A stretch of DNA of 64,000 nucleotides. It comes from Bacteroidota bacterium. Its GTDB lineage: Bacteria > Bacteroidota > Bacteroidia > Chitinophagales > Chitinophagaceae. The notes under the pieces were generated by a model. It saw only the letters and a list, made by a program, of their open reading frames with translations. It ran no database searches and was not told the origin of the DNA. This document shows, piece after piece, positions 3,670 to 23,293 of this stretch. How positions within the stretch are numbered: the stretch's first letter is position 1; the number at the start of each line of letters is the position of its first letter. The stretch lies in NCBI GenBank assembly GCA_016868475.1, contig VGGU01000002.1, positions 1-64,000 of the forward strand, read 5' to 3'. The translations under genes and the position numbers were made by a program.

Positions 3670-4106
3670 GGCACTATTTTTTTTATCTCCTCCCAGGTGT
3701 AAATTTTTCCATCCCGATTATTATTAAATTTAACAGCAGCCTCCTTAGCGCTAAATGCGGCCACTCGGCTTCCCATTGGGGTGAGAATATAATCGGCATA
3801 TATAAAAGAGGCTGTTGAAACAGCAAGCAGTTCTCCCTTTTTTTCAAAATTTACAACCAAAGTCTCCTTGGTGTCTTTTGGGGCAACGGCGCCGGAACGC
3901 ATGAATCGGAGCAAACAATTTACATCGTCAAATTTGAACACCTTCCCCTTTTTGGTTACTAGTTCGCAACCGAATTTTTCATCCATTAGGGTCATTTTAC
4001 AAAAATGGCATAGGTCCGTGCCAAATATGATGGGTTCCTGTTGCGCACTACAAGAGAGTAATGAACCGGCTACAAGAAGCCATATATAAACAATTCGTAA
4101 ACTCAT
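3666..4106 (-). CDS. nosL: NosL copper chaperone lipoprotein
   Basis: The protein has 146 residues from the ATG at 4106. It has a lipoprotein signal peptide with the lipid-attachment Cys at residue 19 (SLLSC). A Cys pair, C33-x2-C36, is followed by M38 (DLCHFCKM), the Cu(I)-binding arrangement of NosL. The family delivers copper to NosZ in the periplasm. A longer reading frame to 4184 exists, but the lipobox fixes the start at 4106, one base after the stop of the upstream membrane-protein gene. nosL also overlaps nosD by 4 bp. Confidence 0.9.
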   Translation of the reverse strand: MSLRIVYIWLLVAGSLLSCSAQQEPIIFGTDLCHFCKMTLMDEKFGCELVTKKGKVFKFDDVNCLLRFMRSGAVAPKDTKETLVVNFEKKGELLAVSTASFIYADYILTPMGSRVAAFSAKEAAVKFNNNRDGKIYTWEEIKKIVP

Positions 4107-4107
4107 G

Positions 4108-4695
4108 TTACTTGATTTGCTTTTTGGGGTTCCTCCATTCAAAATACCATACACCAAAAGCCAACCCAGCTGCTGCAATAACAATCCACCCTCCTATATC
4201 GGGAAAAGAATACGCATCAAAATTCAACAACCGCTTATGTCCAAAGACCGGGGGTTGGTAAGAGAATCCTGGTACTTGAATCGCGGCTTTAGGATCAAGT
4301 TCGTGTCCGTATTTATACCCCCATTGATAGAAATCATAAAGAGCCAGCGCTCCCCCTATGACGGTAAGGATCAAATAATAAAAAAGTAGTTTTCTATTTC
4401 CAACAATGGCAATGATCATTCCTAAAAGTATATAAAACCCTACAACATAAGGAAGAAAAATAAATTCAGGAAACATTTCAACACTGATATGTTTCATGCC
4501 AATGTAGTGATTGAGGCCATTAATAATTTCTACGTCGCCAGATAATCCATTGATCCAAATGTTCATCATTAATCCCTCGGGATACTGCGGAGCAAAAAGA
4601 TCAATTCTCCAAACGGGTAAGAAAAAAACAGCCACCAACGCGCCGGAAGCAAATGCTACCAACACACGAGAAACAACGCTTAATTTGTTTGCCAT
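4108..4695 (-). CDS. nos-cluster membrane protein of unknown function
   Basis: The protein has 195 residues from the ATG at 4695 (MANKLSVV). Four hydrophobic segments are visible (about 8-28, 79-98, 103-121, 167-184), with a loop of about 50 residues after the first (INGLNHYIGMKHI, likely periplasmic) rich in His and Met. The start at 4695 is preferred over one at 4746 because the latter would begin upstream of a strong hairpin (4710-4735) that follows the fasciclin gene. I do not recognise a named family. Its place between nosZ/fasciclin and nosL suggests a role in copper handling or NosZ maturation, an inference from context only. Confidence 0.75.
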   Translation of the reverse strand: MANKLSVVSRVLVAFASGALVAVFFLPVWRIDLFAPQYPEGLMMNIWINGLSGDVEIINGLNHYIGMKHISVEMFPEFIFLPYVVGFYILLGMIIAIVGNRKLLFYYLILTVIGGALALYDFYQWGYKYGHELDPKAAIQVPGFSYQPPVFGHKRLLNFDAYSFPDIGGWIVIAAAGLAFGVWYFEWRNPKKQIK

Positions 4696-4709
4696 AATAA
4701 GGAGAATAA

Positions 4710-4735
4710 GGACCGCAAGACAAGGCCTGCGGTCC
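4710..4735 (-). terminator. hairpin after the fasciclin gene, possible partial terminator
   Basis: An 8-bp perfect stem (GGACCGCA / TGCGGTCC) with a 10-nt loop begins 14 bases after the fasciclin stop codon. On the transcribed strand it is followed by TTATTCTCCTTATT, a weak U-rich tract. It could be a leaky terminator or an mRNA-end stabiliser that sets nosZ-fasciclin expression above that of the downstream assembly genes. Confidence 0.5.
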
Positions 4736-4749
4736 GATGAGGGCATGAT

Positions 4750-5310
4750 TTACTTGGCAGGAGGTAACAGTACCGCGTCAATCACATGAATGATTCCATT
4801 GCTGGCTTGAATAGAGGCCACAATGTTGGCGGTGCCGTTTACTTTTACTTTTCCGTCTTTCACAGTAAGTGTGATGTTGTCTCCGTTTGCCTGGCCAATC
4901 ATCTGACCATCTTTCATGTTTTCGACTTTATACACCGCAACAGCCACGTGATACTGAAGTATATTTTGTAAATCAGCCTTCTTATCATCTTGCATCAATC
5001 CTTCCACAGTTCCTTTAGGAAGTTGATCAAACGCTGCGTTAACGGGTGCAAAAACAGTAAAGGGCCCCGCATTAGATAATGCGGTTACCAATTCTGCTTG
5101 TTTCAAGGCAGCCACCAATGTTGTATGATCGGGCGATCCTACAGCAATCTTCACCACATCTTTTTGCGATTCGTCGTCCTGAACAGCCTCTTGTCCTCCC
5201 GCCACTACTTGCTCAGCAGATCCTGCGCTATCTGAAGATTGCGAGGCATCTCCACAGGAAATCAGGAATATTCCTGCAGCAAATAATAAAGAGAATGTTA
5301 TCTTTTTCAT
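4750..5310 (-). CDS. fasciclin (FAS1) domain lipoprotein
   Basis: The 186-residue protein has a lipoprotein signal peptide with the acceptor Cys at 19 (FLISC). A Ser/Asp/Glu/Gln-rich linker follows, then one FAS1 domain (about residues 53-184) with the hallmark FTVFAPVNAAF motif and the C-terminal NGIIHVIDAVLLP strand. FAS1 domains mediate adhesion or protein-protein contact at the cell surface. Here the gene sits directly after nosZ (7 bp apart) and before the nos assembly genes, an uncommon partner for N2O reduction. The domain call is secure; any role in denitrification is inferred from position. Confidence 0.92.
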   Translation of the reverse strand: MKKITFSLLFAAGIFLISCGDASQSSDSAGSAEQVVAGGQEAVQDDESQKDVVKIAVGSPDHTTLVAALKQAELVTALSNAGPFTVFAPVNAAFDQLPKGTVEGLMQDDKKADLQNILQYHVAVAVYKVENMKDGQMIGQANGDNITLTVKDGKVKVNGTANIVASIQASNGIIHVIDAVLLPPAK

Positions 5311-5317
5311 AATAGTA

Positions 5318-7300
5318 TTATTTATTGTCTGTGGGCAAATTGGTTCCGGTGCTAAAAGTTAGTGGCACGTTAGATCCCGCTGGGCTTACTCGGATATAAC
5401 CCTGCATTTCCTGGTGAAGCGCAGAACAGAAGTCGGTACAATACATTGGGTATACGCCGGTTTTTTCTGGCTTCCAAACAAGTGTTTGAGTTTCTCCTGG
5501 TAAAATGAGTAGTTCGGCATTGTTTGCGCCCTTCACCGCAAATCCATGGGGCACATCCCAGTCCTGCTCCAAATTGGTTACGTGGAAATAAACCACATCA
5601 CCCAATTTCACCCCTTCAATATTATCGGGAGTAAAGTGTGAACGAATTGAACTCATATACACGTGTACCTCTTTACCCTTACGCTCCACTTTTGCTTTTC
5701 CTTCTCCCAAAGCAGCATAAGGGTGTTTGTTTTCTTCCAGCTTATAGATTTTTTTACTTTTTGGCATTACCAAGGATGCGGGAATAGCTTCTGCATAGTG
5801 GGGTTCGCCAATAGTGGGGAAGTCAAGGATTAGCTTCATTTTTTCGCCACTGATGTCATAGATCTGTGCACTTTGTGTCAACTCTGGACCCGTGGGTAGA
5901 TAGCGATCTTTGGTAATTTTATTATATGCAACCACATACTTGCCGTGAGGTTTGCTGGTTGGTCCACCAGGTACACAAAGGTGTCCTATTGAATAATATG
6001 TAGGAACACGATCCAATACTTTCAATTCTTGAATATTCCATTTTACGATCTCTGAGGAAACAAAGAAGGAAGTATAAGCATTTCCCTTTCCATCAAACTC
6101 GGTGTGCAAGGGGCCTAATCCTGGTTTCTGAACTTCTCCATGCAATACAGCATCATATTTCAACACAGGAATACCATCGTATTCTCCATCGAAATTTTTA
6201 GCAGCTATTGCTTCTTGAATTTTTGTAAACGAGAACACAGGAATTACCGCAGCTAATTTACCGCTACCCACAATGTACTCTCCGGTAGGATCGGTGTCGC
6301 AACCGTGTGGTGATTTAGGACAAGGCATAAAATAAACCATGTCTGGGCAATCTTTGGGGTCCAACACCAGCACCTCTTCCTTAATAACAGAAGTAGCAGT
6401 ATGTGTTGATTCGTTAAACTTGTTGTGAGCATAGCGAACCTTTTTCTTCATTCCCTTTCCGGCTTTGGCATACTCTTCGGCTTTTTTCCAGTTTACCGCC
6501 ATAATAAAGTCTTTGTCCTTCTGAGATGCATTTACTTCAAGAAGCGTGTTTGCTTTTTCAGAATTATAGCAGCTGAAGAAGAACCATCCCGCAGATTTTC
6601 CCTTTCCTGCGCGCGCCAAGTCAAAATTGATGCCGGGTGCCAGGATTTGAAAAGAAAGGTTCATTTCTCCGGAAGTGGGATCTACACCTATAAAACTCAC
6701 AGTTCCTTTGAAGTTTTCTTTATAGGTGTTGATAGGAACATCGGTGTTGTCGCCAATAGGAACGCTGAATCTTGTTCCCGCTACCACATACTCTGAATTT
6801 TCTGTAATAAAAGGAGACGAGTGGTTACCAGCGCTATTGGGAATTTCTATGATTTCTGCGGTTCTGAAAGTCTGTAGATCTACTCTAGCAATACGGGGAG
6901 TATTGTTTGCATTACCAAATGCCCAACGGCCATCGTGTTCGCCCTTGGTTACAGACAAAGCTACGTGGTGTAGGTCGTCCCAAGGAACAAACCCGTGAGA
7001 GGTGTTTAGCATTGGTTTTGATTCTTCGGAATATCCCCAACCCTTTTCGGCATCAACCGAAAAAACAGGGATTACGCGGAATAGCCTGCCGGAGGGTAGA
7101 CCATAAACAGACATTTGCCCACTAAAACCGCCGGAAACAAAATTGTAAAACTCGTCGTACGTACCTGGGGCTACATAGGCTTTTGCGGCAGCATCAGCGC
7201 CTACCCCAGAGGACCCCCCCTTGGGCTTACATGACTGTTGCCCAAACAATCCAAACGCTACTACGGCAAAAAGCCAAGCCAATTGTTTAAATTTTTTCAT
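5318..7300 (-). CDS. nosZ: nitrous-oxide reductase, clade II (Sec-exported)
   Basis: The 660-residue protein reduces N2O to N2 in the periplasm. The N-terminus is a Sec or lipoprotein-like signal (hydrophobic 8-20, Cys at 24) without a twin-arginine motif, which marks clade II enzymes. The seven-bladed propeller domain carries His-rich CuZ ligand motifs such as H102, H111-H112 and H122. The C-terminal cupredoxin domain holds the CuA site: C621, C625, H629 and M632 in MYCTDFCSALHQEM, plus the upstream His in VPHGF. It follows a cytochrome c gene by 36 bp and precedes the fasciclin gene. Confidence 0.97.
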   Translation of the reverse strand: MKKFKQLAWLFAVVAFGLFGQQSCKPKGGSSGVGADAAAKAYVAPGTYDEFYNFVSGGFSGQMSVYGLPSGRLFRVIPVFSVDAEKGWGYSEESKPMLNTSHGFVPWDDLHHVALSVTKGEHDGRWAFGNANNTPRIARVDLQTFRTAEIIEIPNSAGNHSSPFITENSEYVVAGTRFSVPIGDNTDVPINTYKENFKGTVSFIGVDPTSGEMNLSFQILAPGINFDLARAGKGKSAGWFFFSCYNSEKANTLLEVNASQKDKDFIMAVNWKKAEEYAKAGKGMKKKVRYAHNKFNESTHTATSVIKEEVLVLDPKDCPDMVYFMPCPKSPHGCDTDPTGEYIVGSGKLAAVIPVFSFTKIQEAIAAKNFDGEYDGIPVLKYDAVLHGEVQKPGLGPLHTEFDGKGNAYTSFFVSSEIVKWNIQELKVLDRVPTYYSIGHLCVPGGPTSKPHGKYVVAYNKITKDRYLPTGPELTQSAQIYDISGEKMKLILDFPTIGEPHYAEAIPASLVMPKSKKIYKLEENKHPYAALGEGKAKVERKGKEVHVYMSSIRSHFTPDNIEGVKLGDVVYFHVTNLEQDWDVPHGFAVKGANNAELLILPGETQTLVWKPEKTGVYPMYCTDFCSALHQEMQGYIRVSPAGSNVPLTFSTGTNLPTDNK

Positions 7301-7336
7301 GTTAAATATTTTTTAATGTTTAAAATATAGATTGAG

Positions 7337-7810
7337 TTATTTTTCTCCATCGTTACTGCGCATAAACTCCAGCACCGTGCGGGCCTCTTCTTTTCCAATG
7401 TTTTGATTAGGCATTCTAACCAGGCATAGCTCTAGCAGCTTCTGTGCCTCAGGGTCTTTTTCCAACATCATATCCACGTTAATAATCATATTCATAATCC
7501 ATTCGGGCTTTCTTTTGGTGGTTAATCCTTTCCAGCCCGGACCCACAACTTTTTCTTCGGTTAGTTTATGACAAGACTGGCACTTTAGCTCATAACTTGC
7601 TTTTCCTTCGGAAACCATTTTTGAATCCAGCGGATTACTAATGGTAATATCTCCTTCCTTTATTTCCGTGCCATGAACTTCTGGCTGGTTTTTGGTCAGG
7701 TCTTCAAGTTTTACAACAGGTTGATCTTCCTGAACACCTTCGTTGCAGGAAAAAATTACTATGGCTCCAATAATAAAAGTTAAAACCAAAAGTGTGTTTT
7801 TCATCTTCAT
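7337..7810 (-). CDS. c-type cytochrome lipoprotein, likely electron donor for NosZ
   Basis: The 157-residue protein has a lipoprotein signal (Cys at 22 in IVIFSC) and a single haem-binding site CQSCH (C77, C80, H81). A candidate axial Met lies at 133 (RMPNQN). As the first gene of the nos operon it most likely shuttles electrons to NosZ from quinol-oxidising complexes on the periplasmic side, as small cytochromes c do in clade II nos clusters. The donor role is inferred; the haem site is seen directly. Confidence 0.92.
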   Translation of the reverse strand: MKMKNTLLVLTFIIGAIVIFSCNEGVQEDQPVVKLEDLTKNQPEVHGTEIKEGDITISNPLDSKMVSEGKASYELKCQSCHKLTEEKVVGPGWKGLTTKRKPEWIMNMIINVDMMLEKDPEAQKLLELCLVRMPNQNIGKEEARTVLEFMRSNDGEK

Positions 7811-7919
7811 AAATTGTGGTTTGGGTGATGTAGAGTTTAGGCGTGTTTTTTAGTCTTTCACGAAGGTCAAAGGTTGGTCTTTTCTGTTTTTTGTTTGTTG
7901 AACTTCGTCATCTCCCTGG

Positions 7920-20190: not shown

Positions 20191-20210
20191 AATTGCTATT
20201 AATAGCAATT
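20191..20210. promoter_or_regulatory. 20-bp perfect palindrome before the SET/ATP-grasp cassette
   Basis: AATTGCTATT is followed directly by its reverse complement AATAGCAATT, giving a gapless 20-bp palindrome that ends 25 bp before the cassette's GTG start. There is no T-run after it, so it is more like an operator for a dimeric regulator than a terminator. Confidence 0.55.
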
Positions 20211-20235: not shown

Positions 20236-20730
20236 GTGCAAACAACCCCGGCTACCCAAACCTACCGACTTGTTCTTTCAACAAGTATTGGCGATGTGCG
20301 CGAAGATGCGGCTTCGGGGCAAAAAGCGTTTTTTGCCGGACGTCAATTTGGTGCTGGCGAAGTTTTATCTTCTTTTGTTGCGGAGGAGGTTTGTGTTAAT
20401 CCTTCTTACTTAACCGTGCAACTGGGAGACAAACACCATATTATGCTAAAGCCGGCATACTTACAATATATCAACCACAGCTGCAATCCAAATTGTTTTT
20501 TTGACACCACCAACCTAACCGTTGTTGCGCTTCGGGATATAGCTTATGACGAAGAGCTTACTTTTTTTTATCCTTCTTCCGAGTGGGACATGAGTCAACC
20601 CTTTGTGTGTAATTGTCGAAGCCAGCAGTGTTTAGGCATGATTCGGGGCGCAAAACACTTGAGCGATCAACAAGCCAACGAGTATCACCTAAACCTTTAT
20701 ATAGTGGATAAAAGAAATTTAGAAGGATGA
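20236..20730 (+). CDS. stand-alone SET-domain protein (putative protein-lysine methyltransferase)
   Basis: The protein has 164 residues from a GTG at 20236; no in-frame ATG precedes the domain. SET motifs: NHSCNPN at residues 80-86 (cofactor and knot region), YDEELTFFY at 104-112, and a post-SET zinc motif C125-x-C127-x4-C132. SET enzymes transfer methyl groups from S-adenosylmethionine to lysine. The usual Asp before the last Tyr of the EELTxDY motif is Phe here, so activity may be altered. It is the first gene of a three-gene unit; its stop overlaps the next start (ATGA at 20727-20730). The methylation target is unknown. Confidence 0.87.
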   Translation: MQTTPATQTYRLVLSTSIGDVREDAASGQKAFFAGRQFGAGEVLSSFVAEEVCVNPSYLTVQLGDKHHIMLKPAYLQYINHSCNPNCFFDTTNLTVVALRDIAYDEELTFFYPSSEWDMSQPFVCNCRSQQCLGMIRGAKHLSDQQANEYHLNLYIVDKRNLEG

Positions 20731-21869
20731 ACAAGGCGGCAATAAAAAATCTTGCTACAGAATTTAAGGTTTGGGTCTTGGCTCCGCACTTTGAAACCGA
20801 GGATCCCAACCTTGCCCATTATTACGACTTTACGCACAGTATTCAAGAATACACGCGGGTTTTCTCTGAATTAAATATTGAGTGGGAATGGGTTCCGGTA
20901 ACCCTTGAGGGGTTTATAAAAAGCATAGAAAAAATCAACAAATCAACCCAGATCAAAAAAGCGTTGGTGTTGAATCTTTGTGATGGCGACGAGGTAAATG
21001 GGACTCCCGGAGTTTCTGTTATTGATGAACTAGAAAAGCATCAACTGGTTTACACGGGGGCGGATCGCCATTTTTATACCATCACCACCTCTAAAATCCC
21101 AATGAAAAAAGCGTTTGACAAGTTTGGGGTGCCAAATTCGCCCTGGCGAATAATTTCAGGAAAACCGGGAACTGTTCGCGGAATTTGTCTACGTGTTGGA
21201 ACACCCCTTTTATTAAAACCAGCCGTATCGGGAGGAAGCATGGGGGTGTCTGTAAAAAATGTTGTTCACTCCGAGCAGGAACTAAAAAACAGATTAAACG
21301 AATTAAAAGAGGGGTATCGCGGTTGGAACCTTCAAGCCGACGGATTGTTTGTAGAGCGATTTATCATTGGACCCGAATTCACCACATTTATTACAGGCTC
21401 ATCCGATGATCCCGCAAACTGCAAAGTATATGTTCCGGTAGAAAGACACTTTCATCCATCGCTGCCAGAGGCGGAACGCTTTTTATCTTTTGATCGACTA
21501 TGGGAAATCTACGAAACAGAAACACCCATGCCGGGGAATGAAAACTTTTACGAGTACGCACCAGCACCAGAATCCCTCCGAAGAAGATTGACGGCGCTTA
21601 GTAAAAAAGCATATCTCGCCTTGGGCGGAAAGGGATACACAAGGATAGACATTAGGCAAGACGCCCAAACAGGAAAATTATATGTGCTTGAAGCAAACGC
21701 ACAATGTGGTTTAAGCGAAGACGAAGACTATACCTCCATTGGGGCTATTCTTAAAGCCTCAAATGTTTCTTACACACAAGTGATTTTTGAAATTTTACAA
21801 GATGCGGTTCGTCGTCATGCACAAAGAATATCGCAAACCACAAAAAGAAAAACAAAAGCAGTATTGTGA
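20727..21869 (+). CDS. ATP-grasp ligase, D-alanine-D-alanine ligase-like
   Basis: The 380-residue protein has an N-terminal preATP-grasp domain with the motif NLCDGD at 83-88. The ATP-grasp fold contains K164 in LLKPAVSGGSMGV, D308 in YTRIDIR, and the metal-binding E322/N324 in LEANAQCGLS. It should form an amide bond through an acyl-phosphate, joining a carboxylate to an amine with ATP. It is clearly not housekeeping Ddl, which is shorter and lies with cell-wall genes. Its ATG overlaps the SET gene stop and its own stop overlaps the next GTG (GTGA), so all three products are probably made in fixed ratio. Substrates are unknown. Confidence 0.87.
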   Translation: MNKAAIKNLATEFKVWVLAPHFETEDPNLAHYYDFTHSIQEYTRVFSELNIEWEWVPVTLEGFIKSIEKINKSTQIKKALVLNLCDGDEVNGTPGVSVIDELEKHQLVYTGADRHFYTITTSKIPMKKAFDKFGVPNSPWRIISGKPGTVRGICLRVGTPLLLKPAVSGGSMGVSVKNVVHSEQELKNRLNELKEGYRGWNLQADGLFVERFIIGPEFTTFITGSSDDPANCKVYVPVERHFHPSLPEAERFLSFDRLWEIYETETPMPGNENFYEYAPAPESLRRRLTALSKKAYLALGGKGYTRIDIRQDAQTGKLYVLEANAQCGLSEDEDYTSIGAILKASNVSYTQVIFEILQDAVRRHAQRISQTTKRKTKAVL

Positions 21870-23293
21870 AGGTTTGCGTGCTTCAACCCGATTATTCAAC
21901 TACGGCGGTAGATTATAAATATTATGATCCACCAAGAAATCTTTCTTTGTTACTTTCTAACAGCCGGGTAGACCATGTGTTTTTAAATAAGCTAACCACT
22001 TATAAACAACTCAAAGAATTATCAAAGCAGGGATATGACATTTTTGTAAATCTTTGCGAGGGATATCCAGAATGGGAAGTTCCTGGTGTTGATGTTGTTT
22101 ACTCGCTCGAGTCGCTAAACCTTCCATTCACCGGACCAAGCTCTGCCACCTATGATTTACCAAAAGCACTATTAAAGTATGTGGCTTATTGCGAAGATGT
22201 TCCTACTCCAACGTATGTGCTCCTGGAAAAAGAGGAAGATATGCACACCATTCCTGCAGAATTAAAATTTCCACTTTTTATAAAACCCGCGCACGCAGGC
22301 GATAGTCTTGGGGTTAACGAAGAGTCGCTTGTAAACAACAGGGCTGGACTTGAAAAAAAATGCAAGGAATTGTTGCCGCTTTATGGCAACGTATTGGTGG
22401 AACAATATATAGAGGGTCGTGAATTTACTGTGCTGGTTGCAGCAAATCAAGACGGTAAAAGCTGTACAAGCTACAAGCCTGTTGAATATATTTTTCCTTC
22501 TGGCAAATCCTTTAAAACCTATTCTTTAAAAACATCCGAACTACACCCGAGCGCTAATATTCCTTGCAGCAATGAGGTGTTGGAAAACAAACTCAGAACG
22601 GCCAGCGAAAAAATATTTAAAACAGCCGGCGGGCATGGCTATGGCAGATTAGACTTTCGTGTAGATAAAGAGGGAAATATATTTTTTTTAGAGATAAATC
22701 TTACCTGTTCCGTTTTTTATACAGATGGATATGAGGGCTCCGCAGATTTTATTTTGAAATACGATCCCGCTGGTCAATCGGGGTTTTTACAACACATCAT
22801 TGCAGAAGGAATAGCGCGACACGCAAGAAAGCAACGACCCTTTTATATGAAAGGCAATTCCATTGCGGGTTATGGAATTTATGCAAAACAAACACTACAA
22901 CCCGGGCAGATTGTTTTTGTTGGAGAGGGCCGCTCTCAACGACTAATTACAAAAAGAGAAGTAGATCAAAATTGGAATGAGGAAGAAAAATTACTATTTC
23001 GCAGATACGCATATCCGATTAGTGAAGAGGTGTATGTTTTGTGGGACAACAATCCGGCAGACTGGGCTCCTCAAAACCATAGCTGTGATGCAAACACTAT
23101 TTTTGACGGGCTCAATGTAATTACCACGCGAATGGTTGCCGCACATGAAGAGCTAACACTTGACTACGCCAAATTTCTTGACGCAACCATGGAGCCGTTT
23201 ACCTGTGGATGCGGTTCGCCTAAGTGTAGGGGAAAAATTGCGGGAACCATCAATAACACGCTAACCACAAGAGAACAAAAAAAGAGGCGTTAG
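21866..23293 (+). CDS. ATP-grasp ligase fused to a C-terminal SET domain
   Basis: The protein has 475 residues from a GTG at 21866. Residues 1-325 form a second D-Ala-D-Ala-ligase-like ATP-grasp enzyme: NLCEGYPEWEVPG at 62-74, K140 in FIKPAHAGDSLGV, D263 in GRLDFR, E276/N278 in FLEINLT. Residues 328-465 form a complete SET domain: GYGIYAKQTLQPG at 335-347, NHSCDAN at 404-410, EELTLDY at 428-434, and post-SET C447-x-C449-x4-C454. Ligation and lysine methylation in one chain suggest successive steps on one substrate or carrier. It ends 3 bp from mnmG (convergent). The fusion is read directly; the function is inferred. Confidence 0.88.
   Translation: MKVCVLQPDYSTTAVDYKYYDPPRNLSLLLSNSRVDHVFLNKLTTYKQLKELSKQGYDIFVNLCEGYPEWEVPGVDVVYSLESLNLPFTGPSSATYDLPKALLKYVAYCEDVPTPTYVLLEKEEDMHTIPAELKFPLFIKPAHAGDSLGVNEESLVNNRAGLEKKCKELLPLYGNVLVEQYIEGREFTVLVAANQDGKSCTSYKPVEYIFPSGKSFKTYSLKTSELHPSANIPCSNEVLENKLRTASEKIFKTAGGHGYGRLDFRVDKEGNIFFLEINLTCSVFYTDGYEGSADFILKYDPAGQSGFLQHIIAEGIARHARKQRPFYMKGNSIAGYGIYAKQTLQPGQIVFVGEGRSQRLITKREVDQNWNEEEKLLFRRYAYPISEEVYVLWDNNPADWAPQNHSCDANTIFDGLNVITTRMVAAHEELTLDYAKFLDATMEPFTCGCGSPKCRGKIAGTINNTLTTREQKKRR

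Follow-up and report, generated by a model that had tools for sequence, protein, structure and literature searches.

An overlapping SET and ATP-grasp gene trio of Bacteroidota as a candidate biosynthetic route to a methylated, amide-linked amino-acid compound

BurB, the methionine S-methyltransferase (MSMT) of Burkholderia thailandensis, is a SET-domain enzyme that converts free methionine into S-methylmethionine (PMC12542666; PMC7496086). In the published description of the enzyme, methionine is held through main-chain atoms, His93 contacts the adenine of S-adenosylmethionine (SAM) and His138 touches it, Tyr124 is an active-site residue, and Ser88 lies near the ligands without being essential, the S88A variant retaining >60% activity (PMC12542666). 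The eukaryotic protein TTLL12 is reported to show neither histone methylation nor tubulin tyrosination in vitro (PMC3520985). Here we describe a cassette of three SET and ATP-grasp genes in the genome of a Chitinophagaceae bacterium (assembly GCA_016868475.1), located within the first 64,000 nucleotides of contig VGGU01000002.1, a stretch referred to as the window. The three genes form a real joint unit, and we see about an even chance that they make up a small pathway leading to a methylated, amide-linked amino-acid compound, that is, a modified di- or tripeptide or an amino-acid amide. In the open-licence literature, we found no paper on the cassette or on a combination of SET and D-alanine-D-alanine ligase; for a SET domain with ATP-grasp, TTLL12 was the only relevant match there.

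The cassette comprises P1, a 164-residue SET-domain protein (window positions 20236..20730, by open reading frame (ORF) call); P2, a 380-residue ATP-grasp ligase resembling D-Ala-D-Ala ligases (Ddl; 20727..21869); and P3, a 475-residue ATP-grasp-SET fusion (21866..23293). All are on the forward strand, as are the features within them. Pfam recognizes SET in P1 (5.9e-11; best stretch, model positions 62-104 of 105), Dala_Dala_lig_C in P2 (7.9e-15) and P3 (1.4e-24), and SET in P3 (1e-7; model positions 1-104 of 105), in agreement with an earlier reading made from the DNA letters alone (the sequence-only reading), which had described the three proteins as SET, Ddl-like ATP-grasp, and ATP-grasp with a complete SET domain. 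The N-terminal Ddl-like domain of P3 covers residues 1-325 (21866..22840, boundary approximate), and the C-terminal SET domain with its post-SET cysteines covers residues 335-475 (22868..23290), with the Pfam match at 335-434. The ORF coordinates bear out the two stop/start overlaps that had been seen, each of 4 bases: ATGA between P1 and P2 (20727..20730) and GTGA between P2 and P3 (21866..21869).

To judge conservation, we use the 80 best loci taken from 325 relatives, so distant relatives are under-sampled. P1, P2 and P3 lie in order in 69 of the 80, which is beyond chance: 68 carry separate genes and one, L080, carries P1 joined to P2. Among the 68, two ORFs together represent P2 in L048, and P2 and P3 are separated by one other gene in L115 and by two in L121. 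In six of the 11 loci outside this count, the contig ends within the cassette region (L052, L072, L073, L074, L077 and L079); four have P2 without an adjoining P1 (L109, L112, L120 and L125), and L093 has only P3 and g4, a membrane-domain gene described below. The P1-P2 spacing has a median of 4 bases over 68 loci, with overlap in 24, and the P2-P3 spacing a median of 18 bases over 78 loci, with overlap in 21; gene starts were taken as those of the longest ORFs, so these spacings are approximate. SET and ATP-grasp domains are fused in both orders, as ATP-grasp-SET in P3 and as SET-ATP-grasp in L080.

The genes are also inherited together. Across 97 related genomes, the source genome included, P3 occurs in 39, P1 in 38 and both in 37. 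P1 is found without P3 only in G096, and P3 without P1 in two genomes, G003 and G010, the latter with a contig that terminates within P2 (locus L052). This P3 count covers cassette-type matches, with Ddl-like hits and P2 excluded, and rests on an 80%-identical contig-end fragment for G028 and on pieces for G020 and G036. Among 395 genomes across the phylum, P3 was counted in 17, P1 in 15 and P2 in 6; all 15 P1 genomes have P3, and all six P2 genomes have both P1 and P3. Eighteen genomes had matched P3, from which G166 was dropped (111-bit ATP-grasp-only hit); 18 had matched P1, from which G350 (102 bits, P1-like, no P3), G294 (55 bits) and G302 (52 bits, the SET domain of P3 itself) were dropped; and seven had matched P2, from which G296 was dropped (108 bits, the ligase domain of P3 itself). 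Many of the genomes are closely related, and this kinship inflates the p values for co-occurrence. P1 and P3 nevertheless occur together where they are unlinked, with P1 sitting 1.7 Mb away from P2-P3 in G383 and with P1-P2 and P3 on different contigs in G303, so the link exceeds shared neighbourhood. Gene order reads P2, P3, g4, P1 in G045, the neighbours of the cassette in L042 differ from those in the window, and most of the closest cassette records carry Chitinophagaceae or Bacteroidetes in their titles. Carriers listed as named strains include Sediminibacterium soli and Terrimonas pollutisoli. Thus the joint system proposed from the sequence stands on conserved order, fusions and co-occurrence even without linkage: homologues are not scattered, and the SAM-motif residues are intact in 76/76 P1 and 91/91 P3 rows.

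P1 is closest to BurB among solved structures. With a profile of 47 P1 rows, BurB scores 5.4e-19 across 126 of 166 positions, and the best protein-lysine or histone enzyme 1.8e-8 along a shorter segment; with the window P1 as a single query, BurB scores 9.2e-10 and the next match 2.3e-7. The AlphaFold2 model of P1 (predicted local distance difference test, pLDDT, 93.2) places three BurB chains in the top three ranks of Foldseek and gives BurB Z scores of 14.8 and 14.0 in VIA-align, against 11.4 for the next match. The SAM-binding SET motif N80-H81-S82-C83 (20473..20484), aligned with BurB, has N80, H81 and C83 identical in 76/76 rows, and the family hallmark F110-F-Y112-P-S-S-E116-W-D-M119 (20563..20592) has F111, Y112, P113, E116, W117 and M119 identical in 76/76 (conservation rows here and for P2 and P3 are those above a length and score limit). 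H81 aligns with BurB His93 and Y112 with Tyr124. As a control, a profile was built from four stand-alone SET proteins of relatives, the four best of five recognized by the P1 model from 10 fetched stand-alone SET loci; it finds MLL1 first (1.8e-24), and BurB is not among the best 60 of its 123 matches. Since these controls go to MLL1 and the SET domain of P3 shows no clear preference, the BurB link is specific to P1. Because BurB is nearest by profile and by fold while the control SETs go to histone enzymes, the most likely substrate of P1 is a free amino acid or small amine rather than a protein lysine, and the lysine-methylation premise of the sequence-only reading is not supported for P1. 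The alignments lead us to claim kinship with BurB in mode of action, and not membership of P1 among methionine methyltransferases. A further stand-alone SET gene lies outside the cassette in the source genome (G000:C18:29094-29387).

Both ligases keep the nucleotide and metal sites of their family. As had been read from the sequence, the NLC[DE]G motif is present, as NLCDG in P2 and NLCEG in P3, and the metal residues are retained. The presumed Mg residues D308, E322 and N324 and the ATP lysine K164 of P2 are identical in 77/77 rows, and the corresponding D263, E276, N278 and K140 of P3 in 91/91; an invariant cysteine follows three residues after the metal asparagine (C327 in P2, C281 in P3). 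The AlphaFold2 model of the whole of P3 has a pLDDT of 92.0, and the 50 Foldseek matches listed are all D-Ala-D-Ala or D-Ala-D-Lac ligases. P2 and P3 miss the curated Ddl cut-offs of 243 and 245.65 bits, reaching at best 75.2 and 99.6 bits, respectively. P3 retains the Ddl loop lysine and has a threonine at the equivalent of Ddl Tyr216. Given the scores below the Ddl cut-offs and the changed substrate-loop residues, the amino-acid substrates of P2 and P3 probably differ from D-Ala. In a tree that includes one outside row with a very long branch, P2 and P3 group with each other rather than with the two Ddl-like rows (support 92/91, not starred). Within the SET domain of P3, residues N404, H405, C407, Y434, C447, C449 and C454 are identical in 91/91 rows. 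P1 and the P3 SET domain fall in separate tree groups with weak deep forks, a split that fits separate recruitment.

Membrane proteins accompany the cassette in two lineages. In 36 of the 80 loci, the next same-strand gene after P3, starting a median of 101 bases downstream, is g4, an ATP-binding cassette (ABC)-transporter membrane domain of about 300 residues (ABC_membrane_3, PF13748, 5.8e-46 in L038). Of 39 relatives that have P3, 19 carry g4, as does 1 of the 58 that lack P3; this lone genome, G013, keeps a decayed C-terminal P3 remnant and an intact-looking g4 (L213:8248-12030). The second lineage is a green sulfur genus with nine P3 genomes among the 395, a chlorosome protein being present in 4/4 tested. 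Of six such loci examined, five show P1, P3, an ORF of 580-694 residues and a third SET gene, with P2 missing; the sequence of the remaining one stops after P3. This layout without P2 makes P3 the constant part. The long ORF of L149, the single such ORF scanned, is a complete ABC exporter by Pfam, and the third SET gene, of about 120 residues (L149:11756-12112, L152:5812-6174), follows the ABC-exporter-type gene. The absence of a transporter, noted from the sequence, thus holds for the window, where no transporter gene lies beside the cassette, and for this reduced genome (1.74 Mb in 107 contigs, 96.7% complete), which has no g4 match; it does not hold for many relatives, in which an ABC-type gene follows P3. 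Without g4, the product of the source genome may stay inside the cell or exit otherwise. Related proteins with 34% identity and no Pfam match, which look like outer-membrane barrels by eye, are encoded beside the cassette in L034 (6736-7713) and L035 (9461-10414).

Gene anatomy, conservation, co-occurrence, fusions, predicted folds and intact cofactor residues are observed; the reactions, their order, the substrates, the methylated atom and export are what we infer in the following scheme, with cofactor use read from conserved residues. P1 would transfer a methyl group from SAM to a side-chain heteroatom of a free amino acid or small amine, the product being a sulfonium or a methylated amine. 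P2 and P3 would spend ATP to activate a carboxylate as an acyl phosphate and couple this to an amine, giving two successive ligations. The C-terminal SET domain of P3 would methylate the substrate, intermediate or product handled by the ligase half. In relatives, the ABC-type protein encoded next door probably moves the product across the membrane. Ligation and methylation of one substrate, as the sequence-only reading had envisaged, is plausible.

Several observations weigh against such a pathway. In P1, Asn80, Leu76 and Asn126 replace Leu92, Ser88 and His138 of BurB, and since BurB holds methionine by its main chain, the substrate of P1 is unreadable from side chains. BurB is moreover among very few solved bacterial SET proteins, and nearness to it is no proof of the same reaction. 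The P3 SET domain scores 51.6 bits with BurB and 49.1 with MLL1, which is no clear preference for BurB. As for the unit itself, P1 of the closest relative, G003 (P3 91% identical), has lost 64 codons including NHSC (L202:5083-5385), with P2 and P3 still open; in G003, either P1 is dispensable or the system is decaying. P3 stands without an adjoining P1 or P2 in L093, L147 and L150, and G302 and G430 have P3 with no P1 or P2 of counted size genome-wide. Conversely, G096 carries two P1 copies without P3, the second of which (L212) lies near ABC and HlyD genes with no ligase nearby. Finally, g4 lacks an ATPase domain, and within the genus its association with P3 falls short of significance (17/36 vs 1/6, p 0.17).

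The same enzymes could act on proteins, the ligases adding an amino acid or short peptide to the tail or a side chain of a protein, as tubulin ligases add amino acids to tubulin, and the SET domains methylating it. That TTLL12 also joins a SET domain with an ATP-grasp-type ligase (PMC3520985) speaks for such tagging, as does the neighbourhood of P3 in L147, which encodes a MATCAP-type tyrosine carboxypeptidase, an N-formylglutamate amidohydrolase and a glutathione-synthetase-type ATP-grasp protein. We nonetheless hold it to be unlikely: P1 is closer to a free-amino-acid enzyme, the Pfam matches of P2 and P3 are to Ddl and include no TTL model at E 0.001, the transporter partners found in two lineages are better suited to a small molecule, and besides the core and g4 no flanking family, these being annotated in part, occurs at more than 35 of the 80 loci, MnmG topping the rest. 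The near-equal closeness of the P3 SET domain to MLL1 and BurB would suit SET proteins that are ordinary protein-lysine methyltransferases, merely sharing an operon with a dipeptide ligase pair. The covalent fusion of SET and ATP-grasp in both orders, the co-occurrence beyond linkage and the kinship of P1 with BurB argue the other way and render a merely shared operon quite improbable.

If the ligases instead supplied the peptidoglycan or cell wall with an unusual dipeptide in methylated form, their closeness to D-Ala-D-Ala ligases would follow naturally. Yet both score far under the Ddl cut-offs, P3 has the threonine at the equivalent of Tyr216, the source genome has a separate Ddl-like gene, and among 16 genomes of the family that belong to other genera, 13 yield only Ddl-like matches or none at all instead of P3, which leaves cell-wall tailoring with a slim chance. 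ATP-grasp enzymes, methyltransferases and ABC transporters are also frequent in graspetide clusters (PMC8939145), and an unseen precursor could place the cassette in a ribosomal peptide pathway. A ribosomal precursor, one of the substrates first considered, nevertheless finds no counterpart: no conserved small ORF (22-90 residues, outside larger ORFs) occurs within 2.5 kb of the core at the 80 loci, where the largest small-ORF cluster, of nine loci, is noise-like. With ligases of the Ddl-like type in addition, we regard this origin as very improbable. Set against these alternatives, we prefer the small pathway to a methylated, amide-linked amino-acid compound.

Neighbourhoods of single homologues point to amino-acid or amine chemistry, each being a single case. 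In G096, a P1 homologue (L211) lies 4-6 kb from Ddl-like ATP-grasp, GNAT and NAD-dehydrogenase-like genes, with a 2-oxoglutarate-Fe dioxygenase gene 2.5 kb away. In G302, P3 lies near genes for gamma-glutamyltranspeptidase, N-formylglutamate amidohydrolase, a MATCAP-type peptidase and a glutathione-synthetase-type ATP-grasp protein. G294 encodes a 617-residue SET-AdoMet decarboxylase-spermidine synthase fusion (L199:4989-8318) adjoining a SET protein with a C-terminal half that is ATP-grasp-like by eye, Pfam finding SET only; this pair possibly represents a methylated polyamine amide pathway. Downstream of P3 in L147, the glutathione-synthetase-type ATP-grasp, MATCAP-type carboxypeptidase and N-formylglutamate amidohydrolase genes span positions 4041-7872. 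Gamma-glutamyltranspeptidase is a candidate partner seen in two cases only, once next to P3 (L147) and once adjoining a P1-like gene (L200).

In the window, housekeeping genes flank the cassette on both sides (PpiD/SurA-like, DUF2480, MnmG and YbeY). We rejected MnmG, YbeY, DUF2480 and PpiD as partners: their adjacency to the cassette is kept in only part of the relatives, so they are probably bystanders. Among the six flanking genes scanned, these four with NadA and SRAP, there is no decarboxylase, transaminase or dehydrogenase of the kind that would complete a pathway to dimethylsulfoniopropionate (DMSP; BurB, BurI, BurD, BurE). A 20-base perfect palindrome, AATTGCTATTAATAGCAATT, is located at window positions 20191-20210, 25 bases upstream of P1, with an imperfect copy in G003. 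As an operator, AATTGCTATTAATAGCAATT was rejected, such palindromes occurring in 3 of 67 other upstream regions against 2.4 expected. A viral origin was rejected as well, viral contigs holding no cassette relative, and so was a plasmid origin: 455 plasmid records match, none covering more than 80% of P3. The 20 plasmid matches listed are ATP-grasp or Ddl-like stretches, and three of these that were inspected have an annotated neighbourhood without a SET gene.

The tie of a BurB-like SET family to amide ligases by fusion and co-inheritance gives bacterial SET enzymes a concrete, testable small-molecule role, and suggests that Chitinophagaceae and green sulfur bacteria make methylated amino-acid products of an unrecognized class. 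More tentatively, we speculate that Ddl-type ligases and partly fused SET domains make exported, permanently charged short peptides, bearing sulfonium or quaternary-ammonium groups, in both lineages, with P3 as the fixed core to which P1, P2, a further SET and a transporter are added by lineage. If this doubtful proposal were true, SET domains, which apart from BurB/MSMT are regarded as writers of protein-lysine marks, would be built into a dedicated assembly system.

Compared with described systems, the cassette and its relatives share with graspetide clusters the set of ATP-grasp ligase, methyltransferase and ABC transporter (PMC8939145); they differ in having Ddl-type ligases and no precursor peptide found at the 80 loci. 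P3 resembles TTLL12 in that a single protein combines a SET-like domain with a ligase domain of ATP-grasp type, but the ligase family differs, and the SET domain of TTLL12 is described as closest to SETD3, SETD4 and SETD6 (PMC3520985). P2 and P3 have the ATP and Mg residues of D-Ala-D-Ala ligases (DdlB and relatives), and the P3 model also has their fold, whereas NLC[DE]G, the invariant cysteine after the metal asparagine and the altered substrate loop set them apart. BurB (PDB 9l4t, 9l4v) is, like P1, a small stand-alone SET protein, and is its nearest solved relative; the two share the motif histidine, the Tyr124 equivalent, a later Ser-(Ser/Thr)-Glu stretch and post-SET cysteines. They are about 25% identical, with a leucine in BurB for the motif asparagine of P1 and Ser88 for its Leu76. 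BurB feeds DMSP and malleicyprol synthesis (PMC12542666; PMC7496086), whereas P1 sits with ATP-grasp ligases.

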